Source: Chloroflexota bacterium (GTDB lineage: Bacteria; Chloroflexota; Anaerolineae; Aggregatilineales; Phototrophicaceae). From it: a DNA stretch of 50,174 nt. The notes beneath the pieces are model-generated. The model was not told where the DNA came from. It saw only the letters and a program-made list of their open reading frames with translations, and did not search any database. Where the stretch lies: NCBI GenBank assembly GCA_003695675.1, contig RFIA01000090.1, positions 1 through 50,174 on the forward strand. The letters run 5' to 3'. The position numbers were made by a program, and so were the translations under genes. Shown here piece after piece: positions 14,738 to 22,348 of this stretch; position 1 is the first letter of the stretch; every line of letters starts with the position of its first letter.

Positions 14738-15262
14738 ATGATAGAAGTAATCATTGATAGTGTGCGTGTGAGCTTGATGTCGCAACATCGTATTGTTGTT
14801 CTCAAAGATACGATGCAAGATCGTTACCTGCCAATCTGGATTGGCCCTTTTGAGGCAGATGCCATTACGATGGAGCTACAAGAGATGCCGCCGCAACGAC
14901 CACTCACGCACGACCTGTTGACCACCGTGATTCGGGAACTCGGCGGGCGCATTGCGCATATTCTCGTCAATGAATTACGTAATGATGTTTATTATGCGCG
15001 TGTGGTCATTGATGTGGATGGTGAGCAAATCGAGATTGATTCGCGACCGAGCGATGCGATTAATCTTGCCGTCCGTGCCAAAGCGCCGATTTTTGTCGCC
15101 GAAAGCGTCATGGACAAAGCATCAGTCGAACCAGATGAAGATGTTGAGCAGGCTCGCTCCGGCAAAGATGATGGTAACGAGATTGACGAGAAGAAATTGA
15201 GCGCTTTTGTCGATTTTGTTGAGGGTCTTGATCTTGAAGACCTCGAGGATCAAGATGATTAA
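14738..15262 (+). CDS. Bifunctional nuclease (BFN/DUF151) family protein
   Basis: The 174-residue protein carries the family core: MIEVIIDSVRVS, VVLKDTMQDRYLPIWIGPFEADAI, then LTHDLLTTVIRELGG and RPSDAINLAVRAKAPIFV. These are the conserved blocks of the DUF151 family, some members of which have DNase and RNase activity. The C-terminal 50 residues are a charged linker and a short UVR-like helix (EKKLSAFVDFVEGLDLEDL). It precedes dnaB by 150 bases but has its own promoter, and dnaB has its own -10, so co-transcription is optional. Confidence 0.9.
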   Translation: MIEVIIDSVRVSLMSQHRIVVLKDTMQDRYLPIWIGPFEADAITMELQEMPPQRPLTHDLLTTVIRELGGRIAHILVNELRNDVYYARVVIDVDGEQIEIDSRPSDAINLAVRAKAPIFVAESVMDKASVEPDEDVEQARSGKDDGNEIDEKKLSAFVDFVEGLDLEDLEDQDD

Positions 15263-15413: not shown

Positions 15414-16772
15414 ATGACTGACCAATTTGCGTTGTTTGAACAAAACATTCCCTATAGTGAAGAAGCCGAACGTGCTGTGCTCGGTGCGGTGCTCATCGAC
15501 CCACCCGCTTTTTTGAACGTGGCGGCTTTCTTGCAAGCCGATGATTTTTATTTGCTGCGCCACGCTTATATTTGGACGGCGTTACAACGCCTCAACGAAC
15601 GCGGCGACACTATCGATAACGTCACGCTCGAAAATGAGCTGCGCGAGATGGGGTCGTTGAACGAAATTGGCGGCCCGGCCTATATCACGCAATTGGTCAA
15701 CGGCACGCCTTCTTCGGTTCATGCCGAATTTTACGGCAAAATTGTTGAGCGGGCATCATTGCGACGGCAATTGTTGGCGACAGCAGATGAAATTAAGGCG
15801 CTCGCACTTGATGAAGAAAAGCCTATCGAGAAAGTCACAGCAGAAGCCGAAACCAAAATCTTCAGCGTCACCGAGCAACAGTCGCGTCGTGATTTCGTGC
15901 CAATGCGCGACGCCATTAGTGAATATTTTGACCAACTTGAGCGCATCGTCGTCAATAAAGAGCAGGCTTATGGCCTGCCGACCGGCTTCCGCGATATCGA
16001 TGCGCTGCTCGGCGGTTTGCAAAAATCGGATCTCATCATCTTCGCTGGACGCCCTGGTATGGGAAAGACGAGCTTTGTTTTGTCGGCGGCTTTGAATGCA
16101 GCGCGGCTCGGCGCGCGAATCGCCATCTTTTCAATGGAAATGGGTGTCGAGCAGATTGTGCAGCGCTTCGTCTCGATGGAAACTGGCATCAACACGAAAG
16201 CGTTGCGTACCGGCGAACTTGGTCAGCATGAGTGGACGCGATTTGTGCAAGCATCGAACAATCTCGTCAACTTCCGCATTTACATCGACGACTCACCGGC
16301 GATCAATCCATTGCAGATGCGGACGAAATGCCGCCGTCTCGCCAGTGAGCAAGGACTCGACCTCATCATCGTCGATTACATGCAGTTGATGAATGCCGGT
16401 GGCATGTACGAAAACAATCGTGTCCAAGAGATTAGCTTCATCAGCCGCAGTATGAAGGAACTGGCTCGTGAGTTGAAAGTCCCGTTGTTCTCCGCCGCGC
16501 AGTTGTCTCGCGCTGTCGAGCAACGGCAAGACAAACGCCCGCAACTGAGCGATCTTAGAGAATCTGGTAGTATCGAGCAAGATGCCGATATTGTCATGTT
16601 TCTGTATCGCGATGAGGTTTACAACGAGGCGACAGAATTTCCCAATCAAGCGGACATCATCGTCGCGAAGCATCGCAACGGCCCGACTGGGAATATTCAA
16701 TTGTATTTCGAGAAGAATATCACCAAATTCATGGATGCCCGCGCTACCAACATTGATCTGAGCAATTTCTAA
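15414..16772 (+). CDS. dnaB: Replicative DNA helicase DnaB
   Basis: The 452-residue protein has normal DnaB length and no intein. The N-terminal domain (NIPYSEEAERAVLGAVLID) is followed by the linker and the RecA-like domain. That domain has the DnaB block GLPTGFRDIDALLGGLQKSDLII, Walker A GRPGMGKT (212-219), SMEMG, Walker B LIIVDYMQLM, and the C-terminal LSDLRESGSIEQDADIV. DnaB unwinds DNA at the fork as a hexamer. Its TAA shares an A with the ATG of dnaD (TAATG at 16770-16774), so the primosomal genes are tightly coupled. Confidence 0.97.
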   Translation: MTDQFALFEQNIPYSEEAERAVLGAVLIDPPAFLNVAAFLQADDFYLLRHAYIWTALQRLNERGDTIDNVTLENELREMGSLNEIGGPAYITQLVNGTPSSVHAEFYGKIVERASLRRQLLATADEIKALALDEEKPIEKVTAEAETKIFSVTEQQSRRDFVPMRDAISEYFDQLERIVVNKEQAYGLPTGFRDIDALLGGLQKSDLIIFAGRPGMGKTSFVLSAALNAARLGARIAIFSMEMGVEQIVQRFVSMETGINTKALRTGELGQHEWTRFVQASNNLVNFRIYIDDSPAINPLQMRTKCRRLASEQGLDLIIVDYMQLMNAGGMYENNRVQEISFISRSMKELARELKVPLFSAAQLSRAVEQRQDKRPQLSDLRESGSIEQDADIVMFLYRDEVYNEATEFPNQADIIVAKHRNGPTGNIQLYFEKNITKFMDARATNIDLSNF

Positions 16773-17488
16773 TGAAAAAATTCGATGGCTTCCCACCCGG
16801 CAAATTGAATACGGTCATGATACCGGCGTTGTTCTTTACCGATGTGCTGCCGCTCATCGATGACCTCGCTGAGCTTAAATTGACGTTGTATTGCTTCAGA
16901 GCGTTGCATCAAATCGAAGGGGAATATCGTTATCTGCGGCGCGTTGATTTTGTGCGCGATGTCGCTTTGATGGATGCCCTCGCTGCGATTGAATCCGATG
17001 ACGCGGCGGATACTGAAGCGCTACTCGACGCGGCGATTGCCCGCGCTGTTGAACGCGGCACATTGCTGCACGCAGAGGTGGCACTTGATTCAGGGGCTGA
17101 ACAATTGTATTTTTTGAATACCGTGCGTGGGCGTAGCGCCATCTCACAAATTCAGGCCGGACATTGGAAATCGGTTGCGGGGGAGCGGCCTATCGATATT
17201 TTGCCGGAGCGCCCAAATATTTATCGGCTGTACGAAAATAACATCGGTATGCTGACGCCGATGATTTCCGATGCGCTCAAAGATGCCGAACGTACCTACC
17301 CGGCGACATGGATTGAAGAAGCGGTCGAAATCGCTGTTAAAGCTAACAAGCGCAGTTGGCGTTATATCGAAGCGATTCTCAAACGATGGGAGACGGAGGG
17401 TAAAAATCGTGGAATCGATGGGGGACATTCTGAACAGAATGGTGAACGCTATGTCTCAGGAAAATATGCCGACTTCATCGAATCCTAA
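16772..17488 (+). CDS. DnaD-domain primosomal protein
   Basis: The 238-residue protein has an N-terminal winged-helix-like half and a typical DnaD C-terminal domain. That domain contains NIYRLYENNIGMLTPMISD, then WIEEAVEIAVKANKRSWRYIEAILKRW and a final basic tail. In Firmicutes DnaD helps remodel the origin and recruit the DnaB loader. Here it sits directly after the helicase and before a loader-type ATPase, which supports that role. The start overlaps the dnaB stop. Its end overlaps the next gene by 80 bases. Confidence 0.9.
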   Translation: MKKFDGFPPGKLNTVMIPALFFTDVLPLIDDLAELKLTLYCFRALHQIEGEYRYLRRVDFVRDVALMDALAAIESDDAADTEALLDAAIARAVERGTLLHAEVALDSGAEQLYFLNTVRGRSAISQIQAGHWKSVAGERPIDILPERPNIYRLYENNIGMLTPMISDALKDAERTYPATWIEEAVEIAVKANKRSWRYIEAILKRWETEGKNRGIDGGHSEQNGERYVSGKYADFIES

Positions 17489-18782
17489 TCCTGATGCGTT
17501 AGAAATACAACGCGACGACTGCCCGATATGTGGCGGTCTGGGCGTTGTGCGTTATGAAGTTCCGATTGATGACCCGCGTTTTGGCAAACTCTTCAAATGT
17601 CCCGGCGACCATCCCGCGCTTGAAGATGAGCGTCAAGAACGTTTTCGTAAAATCAGCAATCTTCAAGCGTATGAGGATAAAACATTCGCCAATTTTGAAA
17701 CCGAACGCCCCGGTTTATCAATTGCAGAAAATCGTTCACTACTTCTTGCTTACGATGTTGCGCGCCGCTTTGCGAGTAATCCTGACGGGTGGTTGCTTTT
17801 AGAAGGAACGTATGGTTGTGGCAAATCGCATCTCGCGGCGGCGGTGGGCAATGCACGGCTTGATGCGGGCGACTCGGTGTTATTTGTCACCGCGCCGGAT
17901 TTGCTCGACCATTTGCGCAGCACCTATAGTGCATCGTCTGAAATTGATTACGGTGAAATGTTCACCCGCATCCGCAATGCGCCGTTTCTGATTATCGACG
18001 ATCTTGGCGCGGAGTCGCCGAGCGAATGGGCGCAAGAAAAACTGTTTCAATTACTCAATCATCGTTATAGTCATCGCCTGCCGACGATTATCACAACCAA
18101 TGTAGACCTCGACCGGCTTGATGGCCGTGTACGTAGTCGTTTGCTCGATGAAGCCATCATTCATCGGGCCAAAATCATGGCGCCGGATTACCGTACTGTC
18201 ACACAAAGCGAACAACAGCAATTTTCGAGTCTCGTGTTGTATCACGATATGCACTTTGAAAATTTTGACACCCAGACGAACACCGTCAATGGCGAACGCG
18301 ATAATCTTGATAAAGCGCTTCGCGCCGCGTGGGATTATGCTATTAAGCCGCAGGGTTGGTTGATTATCCTTGGCGAGTATGGCACGGGGAAAACACATCT
18401 GGCCGCTTCTATCGCGCATTATAGGCAGCAGCACGGTGAAGATGTTCTGTTTTTGACCACGCCGGATTTGCTGGATTATTTGCGAAAAACATTCAACCCC
18501 GATGCAACCGTGACCTTAGCGCGTCGTTTGCAACAATTGCGCAATACGCATCTGCTTATTCTTGACGATCTTGATACTGATAATGCGTCATCGTGGGCGA
18601 AAGAAAAACTATTTCAGATATTGGAACATCGTTATGCTGCTGCAAAGCCGACTGTCATCACGACTGCAAAATCTATCGAAGATACCAATCCACGCATTCG
18701 CACTCGTCTGTTAGATAAACAGCGCTGTTCGATTTTTGCGTTGACAGTCCCCGATTATGCGACACGCATGAACCGGCGGTGA
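17409..18782 (+). CDS. Tandem-duplicated DnaC/DnaI-type AAA+ helicase loader
   Basis: The start is GTG 17409, with GGAGG nine bases upstream and a family-like opening ESMGDILNRM, giving 457 residues. A putative Zn site (Cys 38, 41 and 64, in CPICGG and KCPGD) precedes two AAA+ domains. Domain 1 has Walker A GTYGCGKS (133-140), Walker B LIIDDL and sensor TTN. Domain 2 has Walker A GEYGTGKT (322-329), Walker B LILDDL, and TTA in place of TTN. Both end in R-x-R-x-RLLD and are introduced by a related F-x-NF-x-T segment, which shows an internal duplication. Known DnaC/DnaI loaders have one such domain. Position after dnaB and dnaD makes helicase loading the likely job. The missing sensor Asn suggests the second domain is regulatory or slower. 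Confidence 0.88.
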   Translation: MESMGDILNRMVNAMSQENMPTSSNPNPDALEIQRDDCPICGGLGVVRYEVPIDDPRFGKLFKCPGDHPALEDERQERFRKISNLQAYEDKTFANFETERPGLSIAENRSLLLAYDVARRFASNPDGWLLLEGTYGCGKSHLAAAVGNARLDAGDSVLFVTAPDLLDHLRSTYSASSEIDYGEMFTRIRNAPFLIIDDLGAESPSEWAQEKLFQLLNHRYSHRLPTIITTNVDLDRLDGRVRSRLLDEAIIHRAKIMAPDYRTVTQSEQQQFSSLVLYHDMHFENFDTQTNTVNGERDNLDKALRAAWDYAIKPQGWLIILGEYGTGKTHLAASIAHYRQQHGEDVLFLTTPDLLDYLRKTFNPDATVTLARRLQQLRNTHLLILDDLDTDNASSWAKEKLFQILEHRYAAAKPTVITTAKSIEDTNPRIRTRLLDKQRCSIFALTVPDYATRMNRR

Positions 18783-18797
18783 GATGGCGGCGCAACG

Positions 18798-19655
18798 ATG
18801 ATGAAAGAAACCACATCAGGGCTGCGCATCACGCCATACAAACGTCGGTATCGACAGGTCACGAATGACCTGTTGTTTTTTAGTCGCCTGCAACATATTC
18901 ACCTTGATTGGCAAAATCTTGAGCAATGGTTGGACGAACCGTCCACATTTGCGTGGCTGGCGTGGCGAGGCAATACGCCGGTCGGCGCCATGGCGACCTC
19001 AGAACCACTCAATCATACGTGTTGGATACGTTTGATTGCGCTGCATGAAAATCGACAAGCAATTGTCGCTGCATTGTGGCAGGTCGTTGTACCGGCATTG
19101 CGGGCTGTGGATACACACACGGTCTATCTGTTGGCGACGCATGATTGGGTGCTGCCCTATATCGAACCGCTTGGTTTTGCTTATGATGAACATATTGTCA
19201 CGATGTTTCGCACGAGGCAACGTGTTGTGTCGGTGGATATTGAGGATATGATTATTCGCGTTGTGTCGTTGAATGATGTTGCTTCAATGGTCATGGTTGA
19301 TAACACCGCTTTCCTCCCGCCATGGCAACTCGCTGATGATGAATTGCGGCAAGCGATACGTATCGCCGCCGCGTGTACAATCGCTGAAATCGACGGTGCA
19401 GTCGTTGGTTATCAACTCAGCACACAATATCAAAACAGTGCGCACTTAGCCCGTCTTGCGGTATTGCCGTCGATGCAAGGCAGGGGAATCGGTGCCGCGC
19501 TTCTCAGCGATGTGTTACAACGGTTTGAACGACGCAGCATCTATACGATGTCGGTCAATACACAGATGAGCAACGAACGGTCGCAGCAACTTTATTATCG
19601 CTTCGGCTTTCGACGTAATGGATACGACCTGCCGGTTTGGAAAATCAATCTCTAG
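18798..19655 (+). CDS. GNAT acetyltransferase, double-domain
   Basis: The 285-residue protein starts at ATG 18798 or the next codon. The C-terminal half (about 145-285) is a clear GNAT domain with ARLAVLPSMQGRGIGAALL, which carries the Q-x-x-G-x-G/A acetyl-CoA motif, and QQLYYRFGFRRNGYDL. The N-terminal half has the same strand order (WLAWRGNTPVGAMAT, IEPLGFAYDEH) but no acetyl-CoA motif, so it looks like a degenerate first GNAT domain. Only 15 bases separate it from the loader gene, so it may ride on the dnaB operon. The substrate is unknown. Confidence 0.8.
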   Translation: MMKETTSGLRITPYKRRYRQVTNDLLFFSRLQHIHLDWQNLEQWLDEPSTFAWLAWRGNTPVGAMATSEPLNHTCWIRLIALHENRQAIVAALWQVVVPALRAVDTHTVYLLATHDWVLPYIEPLGFAYDEHIVTMFRTRQRVVSVDIEDMIIRVVSLNDVASMVMVDNTAFLPPWQLADDELRQAIRIAAACTIAEIDGAVVGYQLSTQYQNSAHLARLAVLPSMQGRGIGAALLSDVLQRFERRSIYTMSVNTQMSNERSQQLYYRFGFRRNGYDLPVWKINL

Positions 19656-19720: not shown

Positions 19721-20764
19721 ATGACGATAATCTATCATGAAGATCACGGCGACCTCGAACATTTACGTCACTCGACGATTGCCGTTATCGGTTACGGCAA
19801 TCTCGGTCGTCCATTGGCGTTGAATATGCGTGACAGTGGTGTGCGTGTTATGGTCAGTGAACACGATGAGCAACGCTATCGCCAAGCCATTCGCGAAGGG
19901 TTTGAATTGCAACCCATCGAGATTGCAGTGCAACAATCGGCGATTGTCGTGTTGACATTGCCCGACGAGGCGATGGCCGAGGTGTATCTGACATCGATCT
20001 CGCCGCACTTGCACAAAGGCCATTCGTTGATTTTCGCAAGCGCGTATAACGTCACCTTCGGTTTCATCGAACCGCCGCCGTTCGTCGATGTGGGGCTTGT
20101 CGCGCCGCGCACTATCGGGGCTGCCGTCCGCGAGCGATATGAAAACGGACAAGGCTTTGTCAGCTTTGTTGCTGTCGCGCAAGATGCAACCGGCGCTGCA
20201 TGGCAAACTGTACTCGCGTGTGCCAAAGCGATGGGGTCATTGCGCGCCGGTGCGATTGAAATCGGCTTCGAACAAGAAGCGCACCTCGATTTGTTTTTGC
20301 AACAGGGAATCTTGCCCGTCTTTCATCACCTGATTATCACCAGCGCAAATATTTTGATGAACATCGGTTATCCACCTGAAGCGGTGTTGATGGATTTGTA
20401 TCTCTCCGGCGAGTTCACCGATTATCTAATGCGGGCGGCGCGCGATGGCTTGATGAAAGCCTTGCGCTTGACATCGCTGACGAGTCAATATGGCACTCTC
20501 AGCCGCATGGATCGATTCAACGATTTGAAACTCGAACGGCTGATGGAAGTGACGATGGATGAAATCCGCAACGGGGATTTTGCACAGGAATGGGCGCGTG
20601 AATATGAAGATGGCTATCGGCGGCTGAAGAATTTGCTCAAGCGCCAAGAAGATACTGACCTGTGGGAATGGGAACAGCAAGCGCTCGACATGCTCTATCC
20701 ATTTCGCAACGAAGAAATCGATGATGACGAATTGAATGCGTTGGATGATGACAATTTGTCGTGA
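19721..20764 (+). CDS. Ketol-acid reductoisomerase-like protein with altered active site
   Basis: The 347-residue protein has the size and order of class I reductoisomerase (IlvC). A Rossmann domain carries AVIGYGNLGRPLALNMRDSG (21-40). Then come LVAPRTIGAAVRERYENG, AKAMGSLRAGAIEIGFEQE (169-187) and a knotted helical domain with DLFLQQ, MNIGYPPEAVLMDLY and SLTSQYGTLSR. Compared with the canonical motifs, the substrate Lys is Arg130. The first metal Asp is kept (190) but its partner Glu is Gln194, and the later Glu pair is replaced (Asp225, Ser229). The Ser near 252 is kept. The coenzyme site looks intact, so it may be an oxidoreductase or sensor, not a branched-chain amino acid enzyme. No ilv genes are nearby. 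Confidence 0.75.
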   Translation: MTIIYHEDHGDLEHLRHSTIAVIGYGNLGRPLALNMRDSGVRVMVSEHDEQRYRQAIREGFELQPIEIAVQQSAIVVLTLPDEAMAEVYLTSISPHLHKGHSLIFASAYNVTFGFIEPPPFVDVGLVAPRTIGAAVRERYENGQGFVSFVAVAQDATGAAWQTVLACAKAMGSLRAGAIEIGFEQEAHLDLFLQQGILPVFHHLIITSANILMNIGYPPEAVLMDLYLSGEFTDYLMRAARDGLMKALRLTSLTSQYGTLSRMDRFNDLKLERLMEVTMDEIRNGDFAQEWAREYEDGYRRLKNLLKRQEDTDLWEWEQQALDMLYPFRNEEIDDDELNALDDDNLS

Positions 20765-20850: not shown

Positions 20851-20932
20851 GAACTGCCAAGACGCCAAGATTTTCTGATAAAATTTGTGGTCTTTGCTAC
20901 TCTGCATCTTTGCGCTAAATCTTTTGCTTTCC
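20851..20932 (+). repeat. Dispersed intergenic repeat, copy B
   Basis: It starts with CTGCCAAGACGCCAAGATTT and ends with TTTGCGCTAAATCTTTTGC plus TTTCC. The second half matches copies A and C. It lies just 5' of the GH88-like gene and supplies the bogus N-terminal extension of that frame. Confidence 0.7.
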
Positions 20933-20971
20933 TACCTGCAAACACATCACCTGAGTAGTTACGGAGTTTTT

Positions 20972-22348
20972 ATGCAAATTCATACGGCACTTGAACCGCA
21001 ACATCTGACGTCGCAAATTGATACATTCGTCGCGATGGCTGTGCCGAAAGTCATCGCGCTTCACAAGCGTTGGAAGCGTGAACAAGGTTCGCCGGTCATC
21101 ACAGTCGATGGTGAATACACCGCCCGCACATGGACAGATTGGACGCTTGGATTTTTCATCGGGCAGGCACTGTTGTTGTATGATCTCACTGGTGATGCGC
21201 AATTGTTGTCACTCGGACGCGAACGGACGTATGAATGGATGCCGTCGCACATCTCGCACACCGGCGTCCACGATCATGGATTCAATAATGTTTCGACGTA
21301 TGGCAATTTGCGCCGTTTGATTTTGGAAGGGCGTCTTGACGCTGAGGCACGCGAACTTGATATGTGTGAACTCGCGCTGAAAATCTCCGGCGCAGTGCAG
21401 GCCATGCGCTATCAGAAGACGAACAGCGGCAAAGGTTACATCTATTCATTCAACGGCCCACATTCATTATTCGCCGACACCATTCGCTCAATGCGTTCGT
21501 TGGTGTTGAGTCATCATCTAGGGCATCATCTCGTTGGGGAAGCCGAAGTGCATATTGATTTGCTGCGTCGTGCGTTTGAACATGCGCTCACAACAGCAGA
21601 GTTCAATGTGTATTATGGCGAAGGTCGCGACACATTCGATGTCGCGGGACGTGTCGCCCACGAATCGATTTTCAATACCAATGACGGTCAATATCGTTGT
21701 CCGAGTACACAACAGGGCTATTCGCCCTTCACGACATGGACACGCGGCGCAAGTTGGGTCATTCTCGGATTCGCTGAATTGTTGGAATACTTCCCGCATA
21801 TTTCTGACGAAGTCTTCGCAGAATTCGATGGCAGGCAGCAAATTGAAGCGGTATTCAAGCGTGTGTTGCAAGTCACGTCGGATTATTATATCGACGGGTA
21901 TACCTGCGCCGATGGCATTCCATTTTGGGATACGGGTGCGCCGGGCCTCGCGTCTATTGGCGATTATCGCGCGTCAAAATCAAATCCGTATAATACATAC
22001 GAACCGGTAGACAGTTCAGCCGCTGCGATTACCGCGCAGGGATTGATTCGCTATGGCAATTATCTCAATAAAACTGGGGACGATTTCGTGGCGCAGCGTT
22101 ATATCACTGCTGGGTTGACAGTTGCGCAAACCTTGTTTGCTGAACCATATCTATCAAGCAAGCCACAGCATGAAGGACTCTTGTTGCATTCGGTTTATCA
22201 TCATCCGCGAGGTTTCGACCGCATACCGTCGGGACAAACTGTTCCCTGTGATGAATCGTCGTTGTGGGGCGATTATCATGCGTTAGAACTCGCTTTGCTG
22301 ATTAAACGCATGGCCGCTAATCAATATGTGACATTTTTCGGACAATAA
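20972..22348 (+). CDS. GH88-like unsaturated glucuronyl hydrolase
   Basis: ATG 20972 has GGAG five bases upstream. The frame back to 20885 only translates the dispersed repeat. The 458-residue protein has the helical-barrel pattern of family 88. Blocks include WTLGFFIGQALLLYDLTGD, HDHGFNNVSTYG (the HDxGF motif), FTTWTRGASWVILGFAEL, FWDTGAPGL, DSSAAAITAQGLIRYGNYL and the C-terminal LWGDYHALELALL. Such enzymes hydrate and open the unsaturated uronic residue left by polysaccharide lyases. No signal peptide is seen, which fits a cytoplasmic enzyme acting on imported oligosaccharides. No transporter or lyase is adjacent; a lyase-fold gene lies 13 kb away at 6585-7568. Confidence 0.8.
   Translation: MQIHTALEPQHLTSQIDTFVAMAVPKVIALHKRWKREQGSPVITVDGEYTARTWTDWTLGFFIGQALLLYDLTGDAQLLSLGRERTYEWMPSHISHTGVHDHGFNNVSTYGNLRRLILEGRLDAEARELDMCELALKISGAVQAMRYQKTNSGKGYIYSFNGPHSLFADTIRSMRSLVLSHHLGHHLVGEAEVHIDLLRRAFEHALTTAEFNVYYGEGRDTFDVAGRVAHESIFNTNDGQYRCPSTQQGYSPFTTWTRGASWVILGFAELLEYFPHISDEVFAEFDGRQQIEAVFKRVLQVTSDYYIDGYTCADGIPFWDTGAPGLASIGDYRASKSNPYNTYEPVDSSAAAITAQGLIRYGNYLNKTGDDFVAQRYITAGLTVAQTLFAEPYLSSKPQHEGLLLHSVYHHPRGFDRIPSGQTVPCDESSLWGDYHALELALLIKRMAANQYVTFFGQ

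Follow-up and report, generated by a model that had tools for sequence, protein, structure and literature searches.

A conserved class I ketol-acid reductoisomerase paralogue of Chloroflexota with a substitution at the metal site

The KARI-like gene and its surroundings

The window analysed here is a 50,174-nucleotide stretch from a Chloroflexota bacterium (contig RFIA01000090.1). It contains a gene for a ketol-acid reductoisomerase (KARI)-like protein of 347 aa, starting with ATG (19721-20764, + strand). No Shine-Dalgarno sequence was evident ahead of this ATG, and promoters, terminators and inverted repeats conserved at the gene did not rise above chance. The protein consists of a Rossmann domain (residues ~15-177), a knotted helical domain (residues ~183-325) and a disordered acidic tail (residues 332-347), the last being of low confidence in the AlphaFold2 model. 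The dinucleotide-binding motif GYGNLG (residues 24-29; 19790-19807, +) is nearly invariant in the clade to which the protein belongs.

Both Pfam domains, KARI_N (E 8e-49) and KARI_C (E 5e-18), were detected well above their cut-offs, and the matches are far beyond chance. The AlphaFold2 model, which was made from 53 orthologues, displayed the class I KARI fold (mean pLDDT 90, pTM 0.85), and a Foldseek search with it returned KARI-fold enzymes throughout, among the matches listed. The protein thus has the domains, length and fold of a class I KARI, in good agreement with the original prediction, which had recognised the fold order and length. Its scores were nevertheless below all curated ilvC equivalog cut-offs, with 214 bits against 226.15 for TIGR00465 and 236.5 against 336 for NF004017.

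Upstream, a syntenic run begins with the gene for a conserved 174-aa protein that had no NCBIfam hit (14738-15262, +). It continues with the replicative helicase gene dnaB (15414-16772, +), a DnaD-domain protein gene (16772-17488, +), a DnaC/IstB-like AAA+ ATPase gene (17271-18782, +) and the gene of a GNAT acetyltransferase (18798-19655, +), a conserved neighbour that is separated from the KARI-like gene by 65 bases. This is the usual order in the window's family, with all genes on one strand, and a GNAT gene was found within 2 kb upstream of the KARI-like gene in 53 of 80 loci. Elsewhere in the order, families have retained the gene but lost this synteny, and different genes surround it. Because the neighbours differ in this way, the replication genes represent a conserved address and not a proof of function. 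None of the conserved neighbours names a pathway, and the predicted location outside amino-acid genes was confirmed.

Some further features of these loci were recorded. The ATPase has the look of a tandem helicase loader, as its single 503-aa ORF contains two P-loop ATPase domains of DnaC/IstB/DnaA-like type; syntenic homologues of it occur in many relatives. Downstream of the KARI-like gene lies a gene for a GH88-like protein (20885-22348, +; E 1e-4, below the Pfam cut-off). A tie to this gene or to the downstream beta-lactamase-like and endonuclease V genes was rejected, as these were never adjacent to the orthologues examined. In one lineage (loci such as L133, L134, L147 and L151) the KARI-like gene is preceded by an ECF sigma factor gene in divergent orientation, and a class IV aminotransferase gene, of branched-chain or D-amino-acid type and below equivalog cut-offs, is found downstream.

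The genome (4.7 Mb, 92% complete) contains three KARI_C genes. A second, canonical ilvC, for which the genome was searched, is present on contig C4 in the order ilvH-ilvC-leuA, with every canonical residue. Therefore, the copy in the window is probably not the BCAA enzyme. The third gene, on contig C122 (L002, 857-1888, -), is located between genes for an SDR and a Zn-dependent polyol/threonine-type dehydrogenase.

Metal-site and active-site residues

In MtKARI, Asp191 and Glu195 bind metal A; Asp191 also binds metal B, together with Glu231, and Glu227 is farther away (PMC8615647). The ligand assignment is the same in Sac-KARI, where the two ligand sets are supplied by different subunits (PMC5940873). 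The original prediction had pointed to Arg130, Asp190, Gln194, Asp225 and Ser229, together with GYGNLG, and all of them were found exactly as claimed. Arg130 (20108-20110, +) takes the place of the canonical Lys, with Gln (13/91) and Lys (4/91) as exceptions in the clade. Asp190 (20288-20290, +), the bridging metal ligand, is kept, Gln194 (20300-20302, +) stands for the canonical Glu of metal site A, and Asp225 (20393-20395, +) aligns with the first later Glu of canonical KARIs.

The reading of Ser229 as the replacement of a metal-ligand Glu proved wrong. Alignment with MAFFT L-INS-i and, independently, a HMMER profile against PDB chains placed a two-residue insertion between the later Glu positions, and the canonical E-x-x-x-E becomes D/E-L-Y-x-S-G-E in the branch of the window protein. 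Ser229-Gly230 (20405-20410, +) belongs to this insertion region, which is common to KARI-2 proteins, and the helix in the AlphaFold2 model is broken exactly at 229-230. Since the insertion lies there, Ser229 is an inserted residue and Glu231 (20411-20413, +) corresponds to the canonical second later Glu (230/231).

Where canonical enzymes have the four carboxylates Asp190, Glu194, Glu226 and Glu230, the window protein has Asp190, Gln194, Asp225 and Glu231. On this alignment a single metal carboxylate, and not three, has been lost (Glu194 to Gln), and Asp225 is a conservative carboxylate substitution for the first later Glu. Site B is thus complete in carboxylates (Asp190, Asp225, Glu231), with site A deprived of one of its two ligands. 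Gln can at times coordinate a metal, and site A might survive weakly. The catalytic Lys and His are replaced by Arg130 and Ser107 (20039-20041, +), the latter change having been missed by the original prediction. KARI-2 proteins have Ser107 too, as do 81 of the 91 rows of the clade. Glu186 (20276-20278, +) was found in 91/91 rows and also in canonical KARI.

Canonical class I IlvC proteins (the host enzyme on C4; Sac-KARI, 5yeq; B. anthracis, 8ep7) share with the window protein the fold, length, domain order, GxGxxG motif, Glu186, Asp190, Gln195 and Glu231, but they have Lys130, His107, Glu194 and Glu226 and do not carry the SGE insertion. The "putative ketol-acid reductoisomerase 2" of Saccharolobus (Sulfolobus) solfataricus (Sso-KARI 2; PDB 6jcv, 6jd2 and others), with ~37% identity, resembles the window protein in having Arg for Lys130, Ser for His107, the SGE insertion and Glu318, in its similarly short cofactor loop and in its position on the same tree branch. 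In contrast, none of the four metal carboxylates (Asp, Glu, Glu, Glu) is missing from this archaeal protein, and it was solved with Mg2+ and deposited as KARI (6jcv). The C122 paralogue likewise has Arg130, Ser107, SGE and Glu318, but it retains Asp190, Glu194, Glu225 and Glu231 and scores above the TIGR00465 ilvC cut-off. As Arg130 and Ser107 are common to Sso-KARI 2 and the C122 paralogue, they are old features of the branch and not losses peculiar to the window protein. Arg130 and the SGE motif are not signs of decay, being shared with Sso-KARI 2 and its four carboxylates. The claim that metal and substrate ligands had been lost thus stands for Glu194 to Gln; it does not extend to Glu231, which is kept, to the conservative Asp225 or to Arg130, common to Sso-KARI 2.

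The kinship with Sso-KARI 2, which shows the same Arg, Ser and SGE features and was solved with Mg2+ as a KARI, is what would be expected if the protein were a working isomeroreductase for another substrate, e.g. a branched sugar acid oxidoisomerase, in which Gln194 or water completes site A. The C122 paralogue is flanked by dehydrogenase-type genes, as described above, and a KARI-2 gene at locus L156 lies between genes for a Gfo/Idh/MocA oxidoreductase and an FMN hydroxyacid dehydrogenase; these neighbours suggest sugar-acid metabolism. However, such catabolic genes are absent beside the window gene, and none showed up as a conserved neighbour of its orthologues. Moreover, Glu194 was lost clade-wide and Asp190 in side lineages, which makes an isomeroreductase quite unlikely here.

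The top Foldseek match of the window model, by a small margin, was the cyclopropanol synthase BurG (PDB 7pcc-7pct), whose KARI fold has been recruited for a different reaction. It differs from the window protein in its two-Mg2+ centre (PMC9359912) and in its genomic setting. The HMMER profile run against PDB chains gave 233 bits for BurG versus 292 for Sso-KARI, which by score places BurG outside the clade. A BurG-like function was rejected, since the likeness is one of fold only, the scores are lower than for Sso-KARI and no such gene cluster surrounds the window gene.

Distribution, phylogeny and variation of the clade

A scan of 84,980 species by pattern and tblastn yielded 80 loci that were kept. 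With the exception of one MAG labelled Pleurocapsa minor, every locus had a Chloroflexota title or a placement in that phylum, and the clade is found so far in Chloroflexota only. The exceptional MAG (L113, titled Pleurocapsa minor GSE-CHR-MK-17-07R) shows the Chloroflexota gene order and falls inside the Chloroflexota clade; it has probably been mislabelled or misbinned. Among the 61 genomes from the window's family and order, 46 had the gene, and the remaining families of the order were mostly all-positive or all-negative. A 301-genome sample of the phylum gave orthologue-level scores in two genomes only, both from the same family as the window. Identities ranged from 43 to 63%.

Phylogenetic analysis (116 rows, LG+C20 PMSF, ultrafast bootstrap/SH-aLRT) recovered the window clade of 91 rows as monophyletic with support of 100/98; the distinct clade for which the original prediction had proposed a phylogeny does exist. 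It was joined at 100/99 with Sso-KARI 2, the C122 paralogue and three other KARI-2 proteins, versus the canonical KARIs, and the window protein carries the KARI-2 residues (Arg130, Ser107, the SGE insertion and Glu318). The tree shows that it is a vertically inherited class I KARI paralogue that derives from the KARI 2 branch, and not from the host's own ilvC. This conserved subfamily is not described in the literature searched.

Purifying selection on the gene is strong. Of the 14 close pairs that could be scored, 13 had dN/dS values of 0.04-0.14 and one (L066/L070) had 0.27, and the lineage with Asp190 changed to Arg had a value of 0.13. Loss of catalytic-type residues could indicate a pseudogene-like duplicate in decay, but the low dN/dS in nearly all close pairs effectively refutes this, and the intact ORFs in dozens of genera, the monophyly and the synteny leave the idea with hardly any credibility.

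The variation of the metal site was followed over the 91 alignment rows, a few of which are the same locus fetched twice. Position 194 was Gln in 80, His in 9, Glu in 1 (L111, the one member in which Glu194 is still present) and Asp in 1. Asp190 was kept in 84/91 rows and changed to Arg, Ser, Thr or Ala in side lineages; position 225 was Asp in 41/91, Glu in 37 and Ser in 11; Glu231 was kept in 86/91 and was otherwise Lys or Arg. From these counts, the replacement of Glu194 by Gln, which takes away a ligand of metal site A, is the single clade-defining loss, and complete loss of site B is confined to side lineages. At least two sublineages have Arg or Lys in place of Asp190 or Glu231. All rows with Ser, Thr or Ala at 190 had Lys or Arg at 231, and in the rows with Arg190 the Glu231 was kept. 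This pattern is suggestive: from across the dimer interface, a basic side chain may replace the metal cation, although the independent events are few. On the whole tree, parsimony counted five of them at site 190 and four at site 231.

Such erosion of the metal ligands, beside an unchanged fold and Rossmann motif and residues such as Glu117 and Glu318 that are invariant in the clade, would fit a non-catalytic regulator or ligand sensor. Here the KARI fold would bind a small acid, a dinucleotide or both, and report the redox or BCAA-precursor state, possibly to the replication or acetyltransferase proteins encoded next to it. The strongly kept place beside the GNAT and dnaB-dnaD-ATPase genes is in line with this proposal. 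Nevertheless, other families of the order keep the gene without that synteny, and the window protein contains no DNA-binding or partner domain. Conservation in the pocket is also high (Glu186, Asp190, Gln195, Glu231), and these residues would be needless for a pure scaffold. A sensor is therefore considered unlikely.

Possible function

The best explanation, which is held tentatively and at somewhat less than an even chance, is a one-metal or cation-assisted, NADH-preferring 2-oxo/2-hydroxy-acid oxidoreductase that would be devoid of isomerase activity. The protein retains the fold of KARI and the dinucleotide site, and most members also retain metal site B, formed by Asp190 together with Asp/Glu225 and Glu231 from the partner subunit. 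As the alignment shows, the Glu that holds metal A together with Asp190 is lost. Alkyl migration in KARI needs both metals and hydride transfer is less demanding, and for this reason a reductase without isomerisation is proposed. In the lineages where Asp190 or Glu231 became Arg or Lys, the basic side chain would function in place of the metal cation. The loss of isomerisation put forward in the original prediction thus agrees with the reading favoured here, while the loss of the two-metal centre was overstated.

The cofactor loop in the clade is shorter and acidic, with D/E at positions 49-51 in most members. An acidic short loop is typical of NADH-preferring KARIs (PMC5940873), and by analogy it suggests a preference for NADH. 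In BurG, the E232Q change at a later Glu abolished the rearrangement, yet hydroxypyruvate was still reduced with NADH (PMC9359912). P5C and several 2-oxo acids are among the substrates that ordinary KARIs reduce (PMC4353338). Against the one-metal reading, Asp190 was lost in several lineages, where the single metal would be dispensable, and this fits a non-catalytic protein too.

A further proposal, rather doubtful at present, is that this oxidoreductase family derived from KARI is exchanging its metal cofactor for protein charge, with site A lost at the base of the clade and site B then giving way to Arg or Lys in at least two sublineages. These proteins would be natural one-metal or metal-free KARIs with a new function. 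If this is true, metal-free KARIs arose under continued purifying selection and are widely kept beside replication genes of Anaerolineae. The clade would offer, on one fold, metal centres that range in nature from four ligands through one site to no site, and with these variants the separate roles of the two Mg2+ ions in isomerisation and reduction by KARI could be tested. Databases call such proteins "ketol-acid reductoisomerase", a name that probably does not apply to this conserved group. The gene is kept by the majority of an uncultured family of Chloroflexota.

The activities of ordinary KARIs on other substrates also raised a back-up role in pantothenate or proline synthesis, as ketopantoate or pyrroline-5-carboxylate reductase. 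KARIs reduce the latter compound and can act as ketopantoate reductase (PMC4353338), and an ApbA/PanE homologue was missing in half of the genomes bearing the gene. However, the presence of the gene was not associated with panB (Fisher p 0.22), PanE (p 0.14) or panB without PanE (p 0.69), and fifteen carriers had no panB. Nearly all genomes had proC, and that of the window has proC, panB and two ApbA hits. The co-occurrence test gave no complementing of a missing panE or proC; the substitute role was rejected and is regarded as very improbable. Separately, in about 20 genomes of the family and order panB was present and an ApbA/PanE ketopantoate reductase was undetected; canonical IlvC is one candidate for that step.
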